In this document: positions 1,494 through 8,184 of the stretch, piece after piece
Layout of the letters: every line of letters begins with the position of its first letter
Numbering within the stretch: position 1 is the stretch's first letter
DNA from: Kiritimatiellia bacterium
Lineage (GTDB): Bacteria; Verrucomicrobiota; Kiritimatiellia; RFP12; UBA1067
NCBI GenBank assembly: GCA_017650345.1
Contig: JAGCFB010000090.1
Span: 1-32,397 of the forward strand
Length of the DNA stretch: 32,397 bases
Direction of reading: 5' to 3'
Position numbers and translations under genes: made by a program
The notes under the pieces: generated by a model
Databases searched by the model: none
Told to the model about the DNA's origin: nothing
The model's input: the letters and a program-made list of their open reading frames with translations, nothing else

Positions 1494-1525
1494 CTTTTCG
1501 CCGTTTACGCTTTTCTCCGTTTACA
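1494..1525 (+). repeat. Two tandem 16-bp repeats at the hydrogenase promoter
   Basis: CTTTTCGCCGTTTACG at 1494-1509 is followed directly by CTTTTCTCCGTTTACA at 1510-1525, 14 of 16 bases identical. Each unit ends in a TTTAC(G/A) hexamer, and the second is the -35 of the promoter at 1520-1549. They could be a regulator site or a duplicated -35. A similar string (CTTTTCACCCTTTACG) occurs at 7779-7794, so it may also be ordinary repeat debris. Confidence 0.55.
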
Positions 1526-1549
1526 CTTCCGGCCAATAAGTGGTATAAT
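1520..1549 (+). promoter_or_regulatory. Sigma-70-type promoter of the hydrogenase membrane genes
   Basis: TTTACA at 1520-1525, an 18-nt spacer, then TATAAT at 1544-1549, with the bases TGG directly before the hexamer (extended -10). This is the only promoter in the window with a good -35. Transcription should start near 1556, only about 19 nt before the ATG at 1575 and slightly upstream of an in-frame GTG at 1560. Confidence 0.75.
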
Positions 1550-1574: not shown

Positions 1575-3242
1575 ATGATATTCCTCCTGCCGATCGCCGC
1601 GGTCGTCCCGGCGGCGGCGATCCATGCGACCGGCTACCTCGCAGGCGAGCCCCGCCGCGCGCTGCTGCGCTTCTGGGGATTCTTCCTAGCGACCGCCGCG
1701 TCGATGGCCTTCGTCGTCCTTTCGCCGGACCGCCTGTCCTTCCTCCTCGCGTGGGAGTTCATGGGGCTTTCGTCCGCCGGACTCGTCGCCTTCGAGCACG
1801 GCGAGCGGCACGTGCGCAAGGCGACCTGGACCTATCTCCTCGCCTGCCACGCCGGCGCGTGCGCGCTGATGCTCGCCGGACTCTTCATGGACAGCGCGGC
1901 GACCTTCCTGGCCGCGTTCTTCTGCGCCGTCGTCGGGTTCGGACTCAAGATCGGCTTCCCGCCCTTCCACGTCTGGCTCCCCGAGGCACATCCCGCCGCG
2001 CCCGCCCCCGCGAGCGCCGTCATGTCCGGCGCGATGATCCCGCTCGGCTTCTACGGACTCCTCCGCTTCTTCTGGCCCGCCTGCGCGGTCGTCCCCTACG
2101 CGTCCGCCGCCGGATGGACCCTCCTCGCGCTCGGCGCGTCCGGCGCGGTCCTCGGCATCCTCTTCGCCCTGCCGCAGGCGAACATCAAGCGCCTGCTGGC
2201 GTTCTCGTCCGTCGAGAACATGGGCATAGTCGGACTCGCCCTCGGACTCTCCGTCCTCGCCGGAGTGGAGGACCAGTCCGTCTCCCGCCTCGCGTGCGCG
2301 GGCGCGCTCGCGCACGTCCTCAACCACGCGCTCCTCAAGGGCGGACTCTTCCTCGGCGCGGGATCGGTCCTCAAGGCGACGGGCACGCTGGACGCGGACC
2401 GCCTCGGCGGACTCATGAAGCGCATGCCCTTCACGGGAACACTCTTCACCCTCAACGCCGCCGGGCTCGCGGGGCTCCCGCCGCTCAACGGCTTCCTCGG
2501 CGAGCTTCTCATCTACGCCGCCGCGTTCGACGCCGCGAAGTCCGCAAACCCCGCGCTCGCCGTCGCCGGCTTCATCGCCCTGGCCGCGCTCGCGCTGGCC
2601 GGCGGACTCGCCGCCGCCGCGTACTGCAAGGTCGTCGGCGCCGTCTTCCTCGGCGAGCCGCGCGGCGATGAGGCGTCCGCCGCCCGCGAGACGCCCGCGC
2701 GCATGTGGCTCGCGCAGCTCGCGCTCTTCGTCCTGTCCGTCGCCATGATCCCCGGAACCGTCATCCTCGCGTGCCGCATCACAAGCTGCGGATCGGATGC
2801 GCTTCTCCTGTCCGCAACGGGCGCCGGATGCGCCTTCGCGGCAACAGTCGCGATCCTCGTCGTCGTAAGGAGGTTCCTATGTCCGCGCGGCGGCGTCAAG
2901 CCGTCCGTCCCGACCTGGGACTGCGGATACGGCGAGCCGACGGCGCGCATGGCCTACACCGCGACGGCGTTCACGCAGCCGCTGGCGGACCTCTTCGCCG
3001 GGCTTCTCAAGCCGCGCCGCCACCTGGTCCCCTTCCGCGGCGACCCCGCCGCGCCGACGGACGCCGCGCTGGCGACGGAGACGGACGACCGCGCGCTCGC
3101 CGGATTCTGGCGTCCGCTCTTCTCCGCCGCGGCGCGCGCGCTCCAGCGCTCGCACGTCATCCAGAACGGCTCCCTCCACCTCTACATCCTGCTCGCGATC
3201 CTCGCCGTGGTCGCGCTCCTGGTCGCCGCTCTAGTGTCATGA
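1575..3242 (+). CDS. hyfB: Group-4 hydrogenase membrane subunit, HyfB/HycC (NuoL/antiporter-like)
   Basis: About 555 residues, polytopic, in the proton-conducting NuoL/M/N-MrpD family, and closest to subunit B of Hyf/Hyc-type membrane hydrogenases. Seen: the antiporter core LKIGFPPFHVWLPEAH around residues 122-140 with its conserved Lys, the HxxNHALLKGGLFL segment around 248-260, and the C-terminal TWDCGYGEPTARM motif around 448-460 followed by a long amphipathic stretch and a last membrane helix, typical of HyfB rather than NuoL. It should carry protons (or sodium) across the inner membrane. The open frame extends upstream to 1413, but the promoter at 1544-1549 rules that out. The start may be ATG 1575 or GTG 1560; neither has a Shine-Dalgarno site. 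It overlaps the next gene by ATGA. Confidence 0.85.
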   Translation: MIFLLPIAAVVPAAAIHATGYLAGEPRRALLRFWGFFLATAASMAFVVLSPDRLSFLLAWEFMGLSSAGLVAFEHGERHVRKATWTYLLACHAGACALMLAGLFMDSAATFLAAFFCAVVGFGLKIGFPPFHVWLPEAHPAAPAPASAVMSGAMIPLGFYGLLRFFWPACAVVPYASAAGWTLLALGASGAVLGILFALPQANIKRLLAFSSVENMGIVGLALGLSVLAGVEDQSVSRLACAGALAHVLNHALLKGGLFLGAGSVLKATGTLDADRLGGLMKRMPFTGTLFTLNAAGLAGLPPLNGFLGELLIYAAAFDAAKSANPALAVAGFIALAALALAGGLAAAAYCKVVGAVFLGEPRGDEASAARETPARMWLAQLALFVLSVAMIPGTVILACRITSCGSDALLLSATGAGCAFAATVAILVVVRRFLCPRGGVKPSVPTWDCGYGEPTARMAYTATAFTQPLADLFAGLLKPRRHLVPFRGDPAAPTDAALATETDDRALAGFWRPLFSAAARALQRSHVIQNGSLHLYILLAILAVVALLVAALVS

Positions 3243-4144
3243 AGCTCGTCCCCATATTCGCCGCCGCGCTTCTCGCGCCGCTTTTCGCCGGAATCGTCAA
3301 CCAGACCAAGGCGTTCTTCGCCGGACGCCGCGGACCCGGGCTTTTCAGGCTGTACTTCGAGCTCGCGAAGCTTATGCGCAAGTCGTGTCCGCGCTCGGCG
3401 ACCTCCACCTGGATATTCGACATAGCGCCAGCCGTCTCGCTCGCCGCGACGCTCGTGGCGACGGCGATGTTCCCGTGGGGACCCGGACCGGGCGCGTTCG
3501 CCCCCGCGTGCGCCGCCGTCTTCTTCTACCTCATGGCGACGGGACGCTTCTTCACCGTTCTGGGCGCGCTGGACACGGGAAGCGCGTTCGAGGGGATGGG
3601 CGCGAGCCGCGAGATGCAGTTCTCCGCCCTCGTCGAGCCTGCGCTCTTCGTCATCCTCGGATTCCTCGCCCTGCTCACCGGATCATCTTCGCTCGGCGGA
3701 ATGCTCGGCGGATACGATCCTTCGGACTGGACGCACCACTCCGTGTCGCTGGTGCTGGCCGGGGTGGCGTTCTTCACGATCCTCCTCTGCGAATCGAGCC
3801 GCGTCCCGTTCGACGACCCGGAGACGCACCTTGAGCTGACGATGGTCCACGAGGCGATGGTCCTGGACAACGCCGGACCCGACCTCGCCTTCATCCTCTA
3901 CGGCGCCGCCCTGCGCACGATGCTCCTCGCGGCGTTCCTTGTGGCGATGCTCCTCCCGGAGCTGGACGGAGGCGAATGGACGCGCACGGGCGCGATCTTC
4001 GGCGGAGTCGCCCTAGTCGCCCTAGCCGTGGGCGTGATCGAGTCCATCATGGCCCGCATGCGCTTCACCAAGACTCCGCAGGTCCTCATGGCGACGCTCA
4101 TGACGTCCGTCCTCGCCACCCTCCTCTTCGCCCTCTTCCGCTGA
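3239..4144 (+). CDS. hyfC: Group-4 hydrogenase membrane subunit, HyfC/HycD (NuoH-like)
   Basis: A 301-residue membrane protein of the NuoH/EchB/HycD family, which joins the hydrogenase or dehydrogenase arm to the ion-pumping arm. Seen: a starting membrane helix, RRGPGLFRLYFELAKLMRK near residues 28-50, and the family signature ESSRVPFDDPETHLELTM with HEAMVLDNAGPDL near 184-215. The ATG at 3239 overlaps the hyfB stop (ATGA), so the two are translationally coupled. Homologous operons normally continue with small membrane, large catalytic and iron-sulfur subunits; none follows here. The operon instead runs into a repeat at 4207. The two subunits cannot form a hydrogenase alone, so partners must be elsewhere, or the locus is broken. 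Confidence 0.87.
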   Translation: MKLVPIFAAALLAPLFAGIVNQTKAFFAGRRGPGLFRLYFELAKLMRKSCPRSATSTWIFDIAPAVSLAATLVATAMFPWGPGPGAFAPACAAVFFYLMATGRFFTVLGALDTGSAFEGMGASREMQFSALVEPALFVILGFLALLTGSSSLGGMLGGYDPSDWTHHSVSLVLAGVAFFTILLCESSRVPFDDPETHLELTMVHEAMVLDNAGPDLAFILYGAALRTMLLAAFLVAMLLPELDGGEWTRTGAIFGGVALVALAVGVIESIMARMRFTKTPQVLMATLMTSVLATLLFALFR

Positions 4145-4206
4145 CCCCCTTCAGCGTCGGCGACCCGGCATGTTTTTGCCGGACATCGCCGTTTTCCTCT
4201 CTATTG

Positions 4207-4252
4207 TTGTTTTAGCCACAAAGGACACAAAGAGCACAAAGGGTTCATTGGC
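4207..4252. repeat. Left copy of the CCACAAAGGACACAAAG repeat (half element)
   Basis: 46 bp identical to 7850-7895. It holds only the left arm of the palindromic element seen whole at 7850-7940; the right arm is missing and unrelated sequence follows from 4253. It lies 62 bp after the hyfC stop in the 196-bp gap between hyfC and the sulfatase remnant. Confidence 0.9.
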
Positions 4253-4296
4253 TTCTTTACAGATTTCTTTCGATCATGACCGTGCGCCCCTCCCAG

Positions 4297-4328
4297 ATCG
4301 GCAATGTTTTTCCAACAACATTTCCGAT
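4297..4328. repeat. Inverted repeat (hairpin) beyond the truncated sulfatase
   Basis: Arms 4297-4308 (ATCGGCAATGTT) and 4317-4328 (AACATTTCCGAT) pair at 11 of 12 positions around an 8-nt loop. It lies 12 bp past the sulfatase stop. It could end transcription of the minus-strand genes, but there is no T-run after it, or it could be the edge of an inserted segment. Confidence 0.6.
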
Positions 4329-4340
4329 TAGATGATAATA

Positions 4341-5132
4341 TTACATCATATTCTTCGCCGGATACGGACGCCCCGGCACATGAAGCCGTTCCTTGTGAAG
4401 AAGCGTGTCGTCCGAGCGGCTTGAACCGTGAATCGTATTGATGGCGAAATACAGAAAGAACGGCTGGTCAGGCGTAGTTGCCACATGGTCGCTCGCAAGC
4501 TGCTTCACCTTGGCCGTGAAAAGGTCGGTGGAGTAGATGCCTTCCGCACCCTCCGTCGCGTCGGTGCGGTTTTCGGTAATGCCCATGTACGCGCCGCGAA
4601 CATGTCCCCTGTAGTGGTAGTAGGTGTGCCCGGCGAGATGATCGAGGAATCCGTAGTAATAGTCGAAACCACGGTCGAGCGGATGCGACGTCACGCTCTC
4701 GCCGGATTCCCCGCCGCCGGCAATCCCCCACTTGCCGACCGCCCATGTCGCATAGCCGTGTTCGCGCATTACCGTGCCAAGCGTATTCGTCTCGGAGAAA
4801 GCGCGGTCGAAGCAATTGTCTCGAAGCGAACACTCGCCCTGCCTGAGCCCCGTAAGTATGGACGCGCGGCTCGGTGCGCAAACGGGCGCGGCGCAGTAAT
4901 GGTCGGTCAGCGTCACGCCACTCGCGGCAAGACGGTCAAGGTTTGGCGTCTTTATGCGCGGCAAACCTTCGGCGCGGGCGTTCTGCCAATTGAAGCCGGT
5001 ATCACCCCATCCGAGTTCGTCTGCGAGCATGAAGATGATGTTGGGCTTGCCTGGCCCTACCGCCCCCAGCGCCGAACACGTCAACGCGAGACATACGCCC
5101 AGCAAGTAAACCGTTCTTCTCAGACGTTTCAT
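4341..5132 (-). pseudogene. Formylglycine-type sulfatase, 3'-truncated
   Basis: 263 residues of the arylsulfatase family (usually about 450-550). Seen: a signal peptide (residues 1-24), the metal-site start ADELGWGD at 37-44, the C-x-P-S-R motif CAPSR at 85-89 whose Cys would be converted to formylglycine, GKWG at 133-136 and a His near 235. The frame then ends at ATGATGTAA, so the C-terminal half, including the usual DNG/DHG metal ligands, is gone; no continuation is seen in the 196 bp beyond. The protein probably cannot cleave sulfate esters. Its ATG at 5132 overlaps the stop of the upstream glycerophosphodiesterase (ATGA), so the two were co-translated. Expected site when intact: periplasm or outside the cell, on sulfated glycans. 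Confidence 0.8.
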
Positions 5133-6868
5133 TTCGCCTCGCCTTGCTTCAGCCACGACTTCATTTCGCGCGGGAAGTTGGTTTCGAGGATGGTGAAGCC
5201 GCGCTCGACTAGCCAGCCCCAGCCGTCCTCCGGCGACCCCATGAGCGACGCGCGGTCATCATGCCCGGCGGTGTGGTTGTACCATGTCGCCGCAACGAAT
5301 GCACGCGAGCCGCTCTCAAGAATCTTCGGCAGCAGCGCGAACGTGCGCGTGTCGTTCGAGGCGAAGCGGAACTGGAACGCGAACGGCTTGAAGTTGGCAA
5401 GCCACTCGTCGACATACGTGTCGAGGTTCGCGATCTTGTCCTCGACTACCGGACAGTAAACCACCTTTTCAAGGTCGTCGCCAAACACCGCCCTCGCCTT
5501 TTCGTATGGCCAATCGAGCACAAACACCGTCTCTTCCAGCGTCCCGCACTTCTTCGCGAGTTCGAGAATCTGCGGGACGAGCGCGCCGCCGTCCTGTCCG
5601 GCCTTGTCGAGATAAAGCCGCACCCTGCCCTTGGCGGAGAGCATGTATTCCTCAAGCGTCGGAATCTTCTCCGCCGTCGTCTGGCCGAGCGCGTCGCGCA
5701 GATTGAGCCGCTTTATCTCATCCAGCGTCATGTCGGCGATATACCCTTGGCCGTTCGTCATCCTCGCAACATGCGGATCATGCAGAATCACCAGCTGGCC
5801 ATCCTTCGTGCGCCGCACGTCAGTCTCGACAATATCGACTCCGTAGCGTATGGCATTCTCAAGCGCGGCAAGCGAATTCTCCGGCGCAAGCTTCCAGTCC
5901 GCCCGATGGCTCGCCACCAGCACCTTATTCGCTGCCGGGCCAAGCGAGTGGCGACCGTTTCGTGTCAGATACAGTATGAGCTCAGCGCCGCAATCGGTCT
6001 GTATCAGCGTCGCGCCCTCACGGAGGCACCACCCCCAATTGGAGGCAGGGTCGAGCAAGGCGCGGCAATCGGAATGTGCCGCCGAGAGGTCATCCCACAT
6101 CGCATTCAACCAAAGCCGAGGCGCATTCGGTGCCTTGTGCAGTTCGCCCAGCACAGGAGACACCCTGTCCGCATCGTCAAAGCAGATCTCGTAAACGGAA
6201 GCCTTGCGCGGTTCCTCTGCAAGCCATTTCGGGAAGATCTCGGCGGCGTGTGCATGGTGCGACCAGCAGAACTGCACGACCGGCATGAAGATGAGTTCCC
6301 CGCTTTCCGCAAGCGGCCAGTATTCTCCTAGAAGCGCTTTCGCCGCTTCCGGCGACTCGGTTGATTTTACGATCACCTCTTTTGTCGCGCCAGCCGCCGT
6401 CACAACAGCAAGAATCTCCTGCGGATGCTCCGTAAACCTGTCTATGTTTACGAGGATTCTGCCCTTCGTCAATTCGAGAGCGTCTTCAAGCGTAAGGATG
6501 CCTTCGTCTGTCGTCTTGCCGTCCTTCACGAACCGCAGCGATTGCAACTCTTCCAGCGTCATATCGGCGACCGCGCCATGTCCGTTGGTGACTCGATCTA
6601 CATCCGCATCGTGCATCAGCACAAACCGCCCGTCCTTCGTTCTCCGCGCATCAATCTCGACAATGTCCGCGCCAAGCGCGATTGCCGAAAGGATGGCCGA
6701 GCGGCTGTTTTCCGGGAAGTTGCGCCAGTCGCCGCGATGCATCGCCACAAACACATACTCACGATCATCGGACAAAAACTTTGCCCGAAGCGCTTCCGTT
6801 CGCGTTGCGCCAAACGATGCGGCGGTGAGCGCCGCCACCATTGCAGCAATAATTATTCTCAGCTTCAT
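5129..6868 (-). CDS. Exported tandem-domain glycerophosphodiester phosphodiesterase
   Basis: 579 residues with a signal peptide (about 1-21) and two complete GDPD domains. Domain 1 shows HRGDW at 44-48, PENS at 53-56, the metal pair E71-x-D73 and HD at 86-87. Domain 2 shows HRADW at 321-325, PENS at 329-332, E348-x-D350 and HD at 363-364. Such enzymes cleave glycerophosphodiesters to glycerol 3-phosphate and an alcohol in the periplasm. Both domains keep their catalytic residues, so this is not a dead duplicate fused to a live one. ATG 6868 was chosen over the longer frame (to 6964) because AAAGGAG lies 7 nt upstream and it starts a good signal peptide. It overlaps a short upstream frame and the downstream sulfatase by ATGA at each end. 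Confidence 0.88.
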   Translation of the reverse strand: MKLRIIIAAMVAALTAASFGATRTEALRAKFLSDDREYVFVAMHRGDWRNFPENSRSAILSAIALGADIVEIDARRTKDGRFVLMHDADVDRVTNGHGAVADMTLEELQSLRFVKDGKTTDEGILTLEDALELTKGRILVNIDRFTEHPQEILAVVTAAGATKEVIVKSTESPEAAKALLGEYWPLAESGELIFMPVVQFCWSHHAHAAEIFPKWLAEEPRKASVYEICFDDADRVSPVLGELHKAPNAPRLWLNAMWDDLSAAHSDCRALLDPASNWGWCLREGATLIQTDCGAELILYLTRNGRHSLGPAANKVLVASHRADWKLAPENSLAALENAIRYGVDIVETDVRRTKDGQLVILHDPHVARMTNGQGYIADMTLDEIKRLNLRDALGQTTAEKIPTLEEYMLSAKGRVRLYLDKAGQDGGALVPQILELAKKCGTLEETVFVLDWPYEKARAVFGDDLEKVVYCPVVEDKIANLDTYVDEWLANFKPFAFQFRFASNDTRTFALLPKILESGSRAFVAATWYNHTAGHDDRASLMGSPEDGWGWLVERGFTILETNFPREMKSWLKQGEAK

Positions 6869-6984
6869 TTCGCTTCTCCTTTCGCTTTTCCTCTGCACAA
6901 GAATAGCGCCGTCGAGCATGTTGCGCCAAGCGTGTCGCAGAGGATGTCCTTCTGCGCGTCCCACTCGTCGCCCTGCGAATTCAT
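6865..6984 (-). pseudogene. Remnant resembling the C-terminus of a YjdF/DUF2238 membrane protein
   Basis: A 39-residue frame with an AAGGA site about 9 nt before its ATG, ending in ATGA over the start of the glycerophosphodiesterase. It begins with QGDEWDAQKD and continues with a short hydrophobic stretch (DTLGATCSTALF). From memory this resembles the QGDxWDxQxDM motif and last helix of YjdF-like inner-membrane proteins, which are around 200 residues, so the N-terminal helices are missing. It may be a decayed gene end, or a short leader frame coupled to the next gene. The family match is recalled, not searched. Confidence 0.45.
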
Positions 6985-7011
6985 TTCGTCATTTCCTTAC
7001 TTGACGCTTTG

Positions 7012-7389
7012 CTAGGTCCTGAATGCCATGGCGTCAAGCAGCGGCACTTCCTTGAAGTGTTTAGCGTTGCCGCTCAGAAGCGTATCGCCCGTGTCTAGCG
7101 CAGTGGCGAATATGAGTGCATCGCATACGCCAAGGTCGCTCTTGAGCGCGGCGTCCTCCATTATCGCCACAGCCCTTGACGAGATGTTTGCCGTCACTGG
7201 CAACACGGAGAATCCGAGTGTCGAGAGGAAGCGCTTCATGGAGAGCATTTCCTTTTTGTTGCGGACGCCTTGCAGCAACTCCATGTAAGTGACGGTAGAG
7301 ATTGCCCGCTCTGCCGCCGCGTCTATCGCATCCAGTGCCTTCGCATTCCCGCGAAACGCCCAGATCATCACATCCGTGTCGAACATCAT
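7012..7389 (-). CDS. vapC: PIN-domain toxin (VapC-like ribonuclease)
   Basis: 125 residues with a PIN fold: an early acidic residue in MMFDTDVMIW (Asp4 or Asp6), Glu in YMELLQGV, and Asp residues in SDLGVCDALIFATAL, followed by the usual LLSGNAKHF strand. These acidic residues bind the metal used to cut RNA; VapC toxins often target tRNA or rRNA, but this one's target cannot be read here. ATG 7389 overlaps the antitoxin stop by ATGA, the usual layout for coupled expression. The open frame extends upstream to 7536 only as a shadow of the antitoxin gene. Confidence 0.88.
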   Translation of the reverse strand: MMFDTDVMIWAFRGNAKALDAIDAAAERAISTVTYMELLQGVRNKKEMLSMKRFLSTLGFSVLPVTANISSRAVAIMEDAALKSDLGVCDALIFATALDTGDTLLSGNAKHFKEVPLLDAMAFRT

Positions 7390-7634
7390 GCGAACCTCCG
7401 CTTGGCACGGAGCCCCCGCACATATTCCACAGGATTGGCAAGGTCGTCGCGGTCTGCCCACATTCCGGCGGCCGCGCAGTCGTGAGCCGATGGAGTCTGG
7501 GGGTTTGCTTCCTGCCAGGCGACGATGACCGCCCACGGACGGCCATGCGAAGTCACGGTAACGCGCTCCTTGCGCATTATCGCGTCCTGTATTTCCGGCA
7601 TGCGGTTTCTGAAGTCAAGCATTGTGGCGTTCAT
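7386..7634 (-). CDS. Phd/YefM-type antitoxin
   Basis: 82 residues. The N-terminal part (FRNRMPEIQDAIMRKERVTV then TSHGRPWAVIVAW) matches the Phd/YefM pattern: an amphipathic helix, a short strand and the G-x-P turn, used to bind the operator and dimerise. The charged C-terminal part (residues 45-82) would wrap the toxin. It precedes the PIN toxin with a 4-bp overlap. A GGAG site lies about 7 nt before ATG 7634. The pair most likely represses its own promoter at 7670-7678, as is known for the family. Confidence 0.82.
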   Translation of the reverse strand: MNATMLDFRNRMPEIQDAIMRKERVTVTSHGRPWAVIVAWQEANPQTPSAHDCAAAGMWADRDDLANPVEYVRGLRAKRRFA

Positions 7635-7849
7635 GACCGATCTCCAATATGTTCATTTAAACTATGCACATTATAGCATGGTCGGCGACATGAACGCAAG
7701 GAGCCGCCACTTGGTTCCCTTGCTCAAAGCGTGTAAATGCCAAATCGCCGTCTTCGCATCTCATTTCACCGTTCCTTGCTTTTCACCCTTTACGCCCTGC
7801 TCACATAAAAAGCAAACATCATCATTTTTTCATGAGTTGTTTCCTTTCA
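7635..7849. other. Non-coding stretch upstream of the toxin-antitoxin pair
   Basis: 215 bp, A/T-richer than the rest of the window. It holds the toxin-antitoxin promoter and the string CTTTTCACCCTTTACG (7779-7794) that resembles the 16-bp repeat at 1494. No reading frame with coding character or RNA gene was recognised. It runs directly into the palindromic repeat at 7850. Confidence 0.6.
7670..7678 (-). promoter_or_regulatory. Extended -10 promoter of the toxin-antitoxin operon
   Basis: Minus strand reads TGCTATAAT, a perfect TATAAT with the TGN extension, 35 nt before the antitoxin ATG. No clear -35. The A/T-rich region between -10 and the start codon is where a Phd-type operator would be expected, but no clean palindrome was found. 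Confidence 0.65.
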
Positions 7850-7940
7850 TTGTTTTAGCCACAAAGGACACAAAGAGCACAAAGGGTTCATTGGCGCCCC
7901 GCTCCCTTTCTTTGAGTCCTTTGTGTTCTTTGTGGCTTAG
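7850..7940. repeat. Palindromic CCACAAAGGACACAAAG element (full copy)
   Basis: Left arm 7856-7884 and right arm 7910-7938 pair at 24 of 29 positions around a 25-nt loop; each arm is itself a string of near-repeats built on (G/C)ACAAAG. Its first 46 bp are identical to 4207-4252. Similar imperfect palindromes are widespread as dispersed intergenic repeats in environmental bacteria (recalled). The right end supplies the TAA at 7937-7939 that closes the second frame of the HU-like pseudogene. Confidence 0.88.
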
Positions 7941-8184
7941 ACGAAGCGGATGTTGCGGCGGTAGGAAAGGACGGGCGACGACGGGTCGGCTGCGGCTTCC
8001 GCCGTGCCGCAGGTCTCTATCACCAGGCGGCACTCGCGGACGCAAGGTTTCCGAGGCGGACGGCGTTGCCGGTGCGCGCGATGTACTCCGGAATCACGCC
8101 GCAGAGCGTGTTGAGGATGTTCTCGACCGCCTCGACGCGCAAGTTGAGTCCGGCCATGCGCAGCTCTTCTTCGATGACAAGCAT
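7937..8184 (-). pseudogene. HU-like DNA-binding protein, frameshifted
   Basis: Starts at ATG 8184, 4 bp after the OppD-like stop with AAGGGAG in front, and reads 54 residues to a TGA at 8020-8022: a charged amphipathic start, then VEAVENILNTL, EYIARTG and NAVRLGNL. The TG-x-AVRLGNL string resembles HU/IHF-like DNA-binding domains. Around 8035-8045 the coding sense appears to pass to another frame that continues as VRECRLVIETCGTAEAA and ends SPVLSYRRNIRFV at a TAA inside the repeat. The parts are 2 nt out of phase, so a frameshift or small internal deletion is likely. The family call rests on pattern only. Confidence 0.45.

Follow-up and report, generated by a model that had tools for sequence, protein, structure and literature searches.

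An operon split in the genome of a gut Kiritimatiellia bacterium separates the genes of a probable Ehr-type membrane complex

The window analysed here is the entire 32.4-kb contig C33 of the metagenome-assembled genome (MAG) G000, and we conclude with considerable confidence that it holds the hyfBC half of a B-C-E-F-G-(H)I operon that is split between hyfC and hyfE. The other half lies on contig C80 behind a promoter of its own, and both halves together would encode a shortened Ehr complex that likely acts as a redox-driven ion pump. The catalytic subunits only seem to be lost; their operon has been split. In public records, the relatives of G000 appear as gut MAGs under the labels Kiritimatiellae or uncultured Verrucomicrobia, with horse, yak or deer as the source of several. 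For genes in the relatives' loci, the gene caller was trained per locus (GC content differs between genomes); start codons are predictions, and E-values and trees are computational.

The hyfBC unit and its counterpart on contig C80

hyfB (1575..3242, plus strand) encodes an antiporter-like membrane subunit of the NuoL/HyfB type with 555 aa (PF00361, E=1e-40; top NCBIfam model hydrogenase 4 subunit B), and hyfC (3239..4144, plus strand) a NuoH/HycD-type membrane subunit with 301 aa (PF00146, E=1e-28). The first-pass annotation had described the two genes as coupled and equipped with a good promoter, and this is confirmed by their 4-bp overlap (ATGA at 3239-3242) and by an extended sigma-70-type promoter at 1520..1549 (plus strand; TTTACA, 18 nt, TG-extended TATAAT) that matches at 11 of 12 positions; shuffled sequence yields 0.4 such sites per region. 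It was equally correct that the expected further subunits are absent behind hyfC, where no gene for E, F, G, H or I was found within the window, and that the left copy of a 46-bp repeat begins 62 bp past this gene (hyfC stop at 4144, repeat start at 4207). The gap between hyfC and the repeat contains a probable intrinsic terminator of the hyfBC unit (4158..4191, plus strand), a stable hairpin (-21.9 kcal/mol; z -3.2) with a trailing UUUU, so that the unit looks complete.

A search of the same genome for the missing subunits recovered all of them on C80 (47 kb). There, hyfE (15659-14967), hyfF (14970-13744), a hyfG-like large subunit gene (13747-12620) and a fused hyfH/I gene (12615-11881) follow each other, overlapping or nearly so, and are flanked by a divergent proB and a convergent glycosyltransferase gene. 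Searches by protein family found a single NADHdh (NuoH-type) gene in G000, which is hyfC on C33, two Proton_antipo_M (antiporter-type) genes, namely hyfB on C33 and one on C80, and one 49-kDa-like gene, on C80. One NuoH-type, two antiporter-type and one 49-kDa-type gene are what a single complex needs. The extended -10 element TGGTATAAT precedes hyfB, hyfE, proB and other genes of G000. Gene content, split and promoter sequences can be read directly from the two contigs, and we infer that the products of both loci assemble into one complex. The earlier suggestion that HyfB and HyfC serve a complex encoded elsewhere is thus borne out by the E, F, G and H/I genes on C80.

G000 comprises 1.44 Mb in 103 contigs and is 65% complete, and the C33/C80 arrangement is seen in this one MAG, for which a single assembly exists. 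Such fragmentation could point to an artefact of assembly or binning, with C33 or C80 being chimeric or foreign and the true operon being intact. We consider this very unlikely. hyfE is preceded by ~146 bp with a typical G000 promoter, whereas in intact relatives it starts ~2-40 bp after hyfC. The composition of both contigs agrees (tetranucleotide correlation r 0.992), contamination is as low as 0.06%, and each half is present in single copy. In addition, a split between hyfF and hyfG is common to three related genomes (G010, G025 and G001), with the same flanks in G010 and G025, which argues that such splits are real in this group.

The 46-bp repeat and the low-GC island

The left repeat copy (4207..4252) lies outside the hyf unit, and neither the identical right copy (7850..7895) nor the 3.6-kb low-GC island between them (4253..7849) belongs to the hyf complex. 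The island has a GC content of 0.577 compared to 0.672 and 0.655 in the flanks, with a GC3 of ~0.70 compared to 0.85-0.92, and encodes a sulfatase with a short C-terminal end, a double GDPD protein and a PIN toxin with a Phd-like antitoxin. The sulfatase (4341-5156, minus strand; 271 aa) matches domain positions 1-177 of 301, its C-terminal part being missing on the side that faces the left repeat. The PIN-domain protein and its weak Phd/YefM-like partner (7012-7634, minus strand) are a probable toxin-antitoxin pair. The right repeat copy is followed by an inverted partial copy (7910-7942), a pair that can form a hairpin (7852-7942); the left copy has no inverted partner. A 28-bp core of the repeat recurs at 7857, with a third copy on contig C43 of G000 (L191, ~3987-4014, minus strand), inside an apparent methyltransferase-type coding sequence with an MGNPPF motif.

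Given a repeat so close behind hyfC and a foreign-looking island next to it, the first-pass annotation had considered recombination at the repeat as a way in which the rest of the operon could have been deleted. An exchange between the two 46-bp copies, or with another copy, would then have excised hyfE-F-G-H/I from behind hyfC or shifted it elsewhere. This history is now very improbable. Nothing is missing, as all four genes persist on C80; no repeat copy was found on C80 within 3 mismatches; and the probable terminator stands between hyfC and the repeat, leaving the island outside. Furthermore, the splits in relatives are mostly at other junctions, and none of their loci was found to contain the repeat core. 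As a variant, recombination may have taken place at repeat copies that have since been lost. For the island itself, the best reading is that it inserted independently, behind a transcription unit that is complete.

Operon layout in relatives and gene-order fluidity

hyfC was found in 32 and hyfG in 30 of 115 family genomes, including a few weak matches that perhaps belong to other families. The two sets of genomes are almost identical, so that both genes co-occur almost always, linked or unlinked. The physical separation of hyfBC from the remaining genes would by itself agree with a stand-alone antiporter module without a catalytic arm, as had also been proposed for the window. In complex-I-like enzymes, however, HyfC connects the membrane arm with the catalytic arm, the G000 protein keeps the residues that are conserved in intact operons, and hyfG is present in almost every genome with hyfC. 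We therefore regard a stand-alone module as extremely unlikely, and with the partner subunits encoded on C80 there is no need to assume one.

The order B-C-E-F-G-(H)I is intact in nine genomes of the group (G040, G008, G036, G015, G131, G129, G133, G098 and G110; the G133 contig starts within hyfC) and also occurs in other families of the order. Among 80 public loci found with HyfC, leaving aside those that belong to the group, the genes are linked in all 58 that had enough sequence (57 by script, L121 by its map). The script had flagged L121 as unlinked, but its map shows an intact operon. In G000 the contiguous order is broken between C and E and the hyf genes occupy two loci. A C|E split was also found in G051, a member of another family, an E|F split in G033 (clean on the hyfE side only), and F|G splits in the trio G010, G025 and G001 as well as in G121, G139 and G031. 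The earlier idea that the two-gene layout might simply be the normal one in relatives did not hold in the genus, whose members have either an unbroken operon or a break at another point; the split in G000 is thus derived. Even without a tree, three different junctions (C|E, E|F and F|G) require several fission events. In a maximum-likelihood tree of six concatenated proteins, split states are scattered among intact ones, which implies at least six independent fissions in the group, given an intact ancestor, although the nodes near G000 and G121 are weak (59-86% support). A post hoc Fisher test with counts set by hand, chosen with the results already in view, is given no weight here. In the collection of papers searched, no account of Kiritimatiellota hydrogenases or of split Ehr operons was found.

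Some loci show further peculiarities. At L185 (contig C12 of G138), hyfB, hyfF and hyfG each match in two pieces, suggesting frameshifts that could reflect decay or sequencing error. In some related genera the operon contains two successive HyfB-like genes (L084, L182, L183, L184 and L186). In other lineages, a gene combining HTH and PTS EIIA parts, possibly a regulator, is located near or just upstream of hyfB (L083, L084, L086, L088, L110, L113, L114, L117, L180, L182, L183, L184 and L186).

The flanking genes suggest which half of the G000 operon was relocated. argC and a Wzc-like kinase gene lie 3' of the intact G040 operon and on the same side of the hyf genes on C80. Genes rplM, rpsI and a DEAD-box helicase gene are found near hyfB in both G040 and G010/G025; in G000 they are located on contig C76 after rnfAB, with no hyfB before the contig end. 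Because the C80 half keeps the 3' flank known from G040 and the rplM-rpsI-helicase genes on C76 are without hyfB, hyfBC is probably the half that moved. In G000 it now adjoins a phosphofructokinase (PFK) gene. In 14 relative loci, no gene is a conserved neighbour of PFK; the ancestral empty site at PFK was accordingly not reconstructable, and gene order is generally fluid in the genus.

A similar picture emerged for Rnf. RnfA and RnfE are usually neighbours. Among 44 genus genomes with both, they are on different contigs in 42, G000 included, and adjacent only in G003 and G133. In G000, rnfE stands alone beside an nrdR-like gene on C78 (L212:6309-6983), a neighbourhood shared with G008 and G010, and rnfAB precede rplM-rpsI-DEAD-box helicase on C76 (L213:3145-4550). 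Contig breaks may account for single separations of rnfA and rnfE but not for the shared, flank-conserved one. These observations suggest that the genus tends to break up its operons. Rnf was also considered as an alternative to Ehr and discarded, as their presence across genomes is not complementary. On balance, we lean towards the view that the genus repeatedly dismantles its operons for ferredoxin-linked pumps (Ehr and Rnf) into separately transcribed pieces while all subunits are kept, co-transcription no longer being needed for assembly. If this is true, at least six Ehr fissions at three junctions would provide a natural series on membrane complexes that survive operon break-up. As one conserved operon broke several times in this group, and at different points, the group can serve to test whether linkage matters for the assembly of complex-I-like pumps.

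Nature of the complex and comparison with known systems

The large subunit of G000 has A, T, S and G at the four Ni-cysteine columns when aligned with E. coli HycE and HyfG. Among 103 relatives, columns 2, 3 and 4 are free of cysteine throughout, and column 1 holds a lone cysteine in three. The G000 protein terminates just beyond the second motif and thus has no extension to process, and HypD, a marker of NiFe maturation, was found in none of 61 genus genomes while controls were positive. Of the features that characterize group 4 NiFe hydrogenases (Hyf/Hyc), the two NiFe-binding CxxC motifs are hence absent, and the maturation genes, as judged by HypD, were not found. Since Ni ligands, C-terminal extension and HypD are all lacking, the hyf complex, as far as its sequences tell, probably does not handle H2. 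In the strict sense, the label 'hydrogenase' that the first pass had applied does not fit, and 'hydrogenase 4' is likely an annotation error for the hyf complex. FeFe hydrogenase domains were detected in 52 of 61 genus genomes and not in the incomplete G000. We take Tyr87 of T. thermophilus Nqo4 to be the quinone-site Tyr of the 49-kDa subunit of complex I. At this position the G000 large subunit has Gly in a pairwise alignment with 2fug_4 that is weak there. Ehr complexes are described as devoid of the Ni- and Fe-coordinating residues (PMC6349859; PMC7304191) and occur in Geobacter (PMC7894505). Like theirs, the G000 large subunit is homologous to group 4 hydrogenases but has no Ni/Fe ligands.

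Other parts of the machinery are preserved. All 20 genus sequences carry four cysteines for a proximal N2-type cluster in the HyfI-like part, as expected of an Ehr small subunit, and one complete [4Fe-4S] motif, the second ferredoxin motif being lost. The membrane subunits, antiporter-like and NuoH-like, have their pump residues, a further feature of Ehr complexes: the charged residues of HyfB, HyfF and HyfC that are conserved in the clade are kept in G000, except for K to R at HyfC 226, and HyfC has the clade residues H197 and H204. The N-terminus of HyfB is ~80 aa shorter than in E. coli HyfB, which is a genus-wide trait and not damage at the window locus. Subunits are shortened across the group (HyfB ~560 vs ~660 aa, HyfF ~400 vs ~480), and the G000 large subunit is without the 30-kDa domain, which is kept by relatives from other genera. 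Overall, this is the pattern of a retained, selected machine rather than of decay.

Based on homology to Ech/Mbh/FHL and complex I, we infer that electrons, most likely donated by reduced ferredoxin or another compound of similarly low potential, would pass a single [4Fe-4S] cluster of the HyfH-like part and then the N2-type cluster of the HyfI-like part to reach the pocket of the HyfG-like subunit. This redox step would drive the translocation of an ion through HyfB, HyfC and HyfF, and HyfE would be an accessory membrane subunit. As pointers to an electron partner, neighbouring genes yielded only lineage-specific associations (the EIIA-HTH regulator and, in Elusimicrobia, NAD(P)/FAD oxidoreductases and DUF1667), none of which extends to the genus of G000. 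For most Ehr complexes, to our knowledge, it is not established that redox chemistry other than that of H2 drives an ion pump.

Like the published Ehr complexes, the G000 system would be a group-4-hydrogenase-like membrane complex with antiporter-like subunits and a large subunit free of Ni/Fe ligands. It differs from them in that its genes are at two loci, HyfH and HyfI are fused, the large subunit has no 30-kDa (NuoC-like) domain, and HyfB and HyfF are N-terminally shorter. The closest solved relatives of G000 HyfG, HyfI and HyfC are subunits of the E. coli formate hydrogenlyase (FHL, HycBCDEFG; PDB 7z0s), and the gene order B-C-E-F-G-H-I is that of hyf, which encodes E. coli Hyd-4 (HyfA-I). 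In contrast to FHL and Hyd-4, G000 has none of the four Ni cysteines and no C-terminal processing extension, HypD was not found in its genus, the operon lacks hyfA, hyfD and hyfJ, and one of two ferredoxin-type motifs is lost. Mbh and Mbs (Mbx) are ferredoxin-linked complex-I-like pumps, of which Mbh is a true NiFe hydrogenase. Both Pyrococcus complexes are related in sequence to the G000 complex (6cfw, 6u8y), but the similarity is weaker and their subunit set is different.
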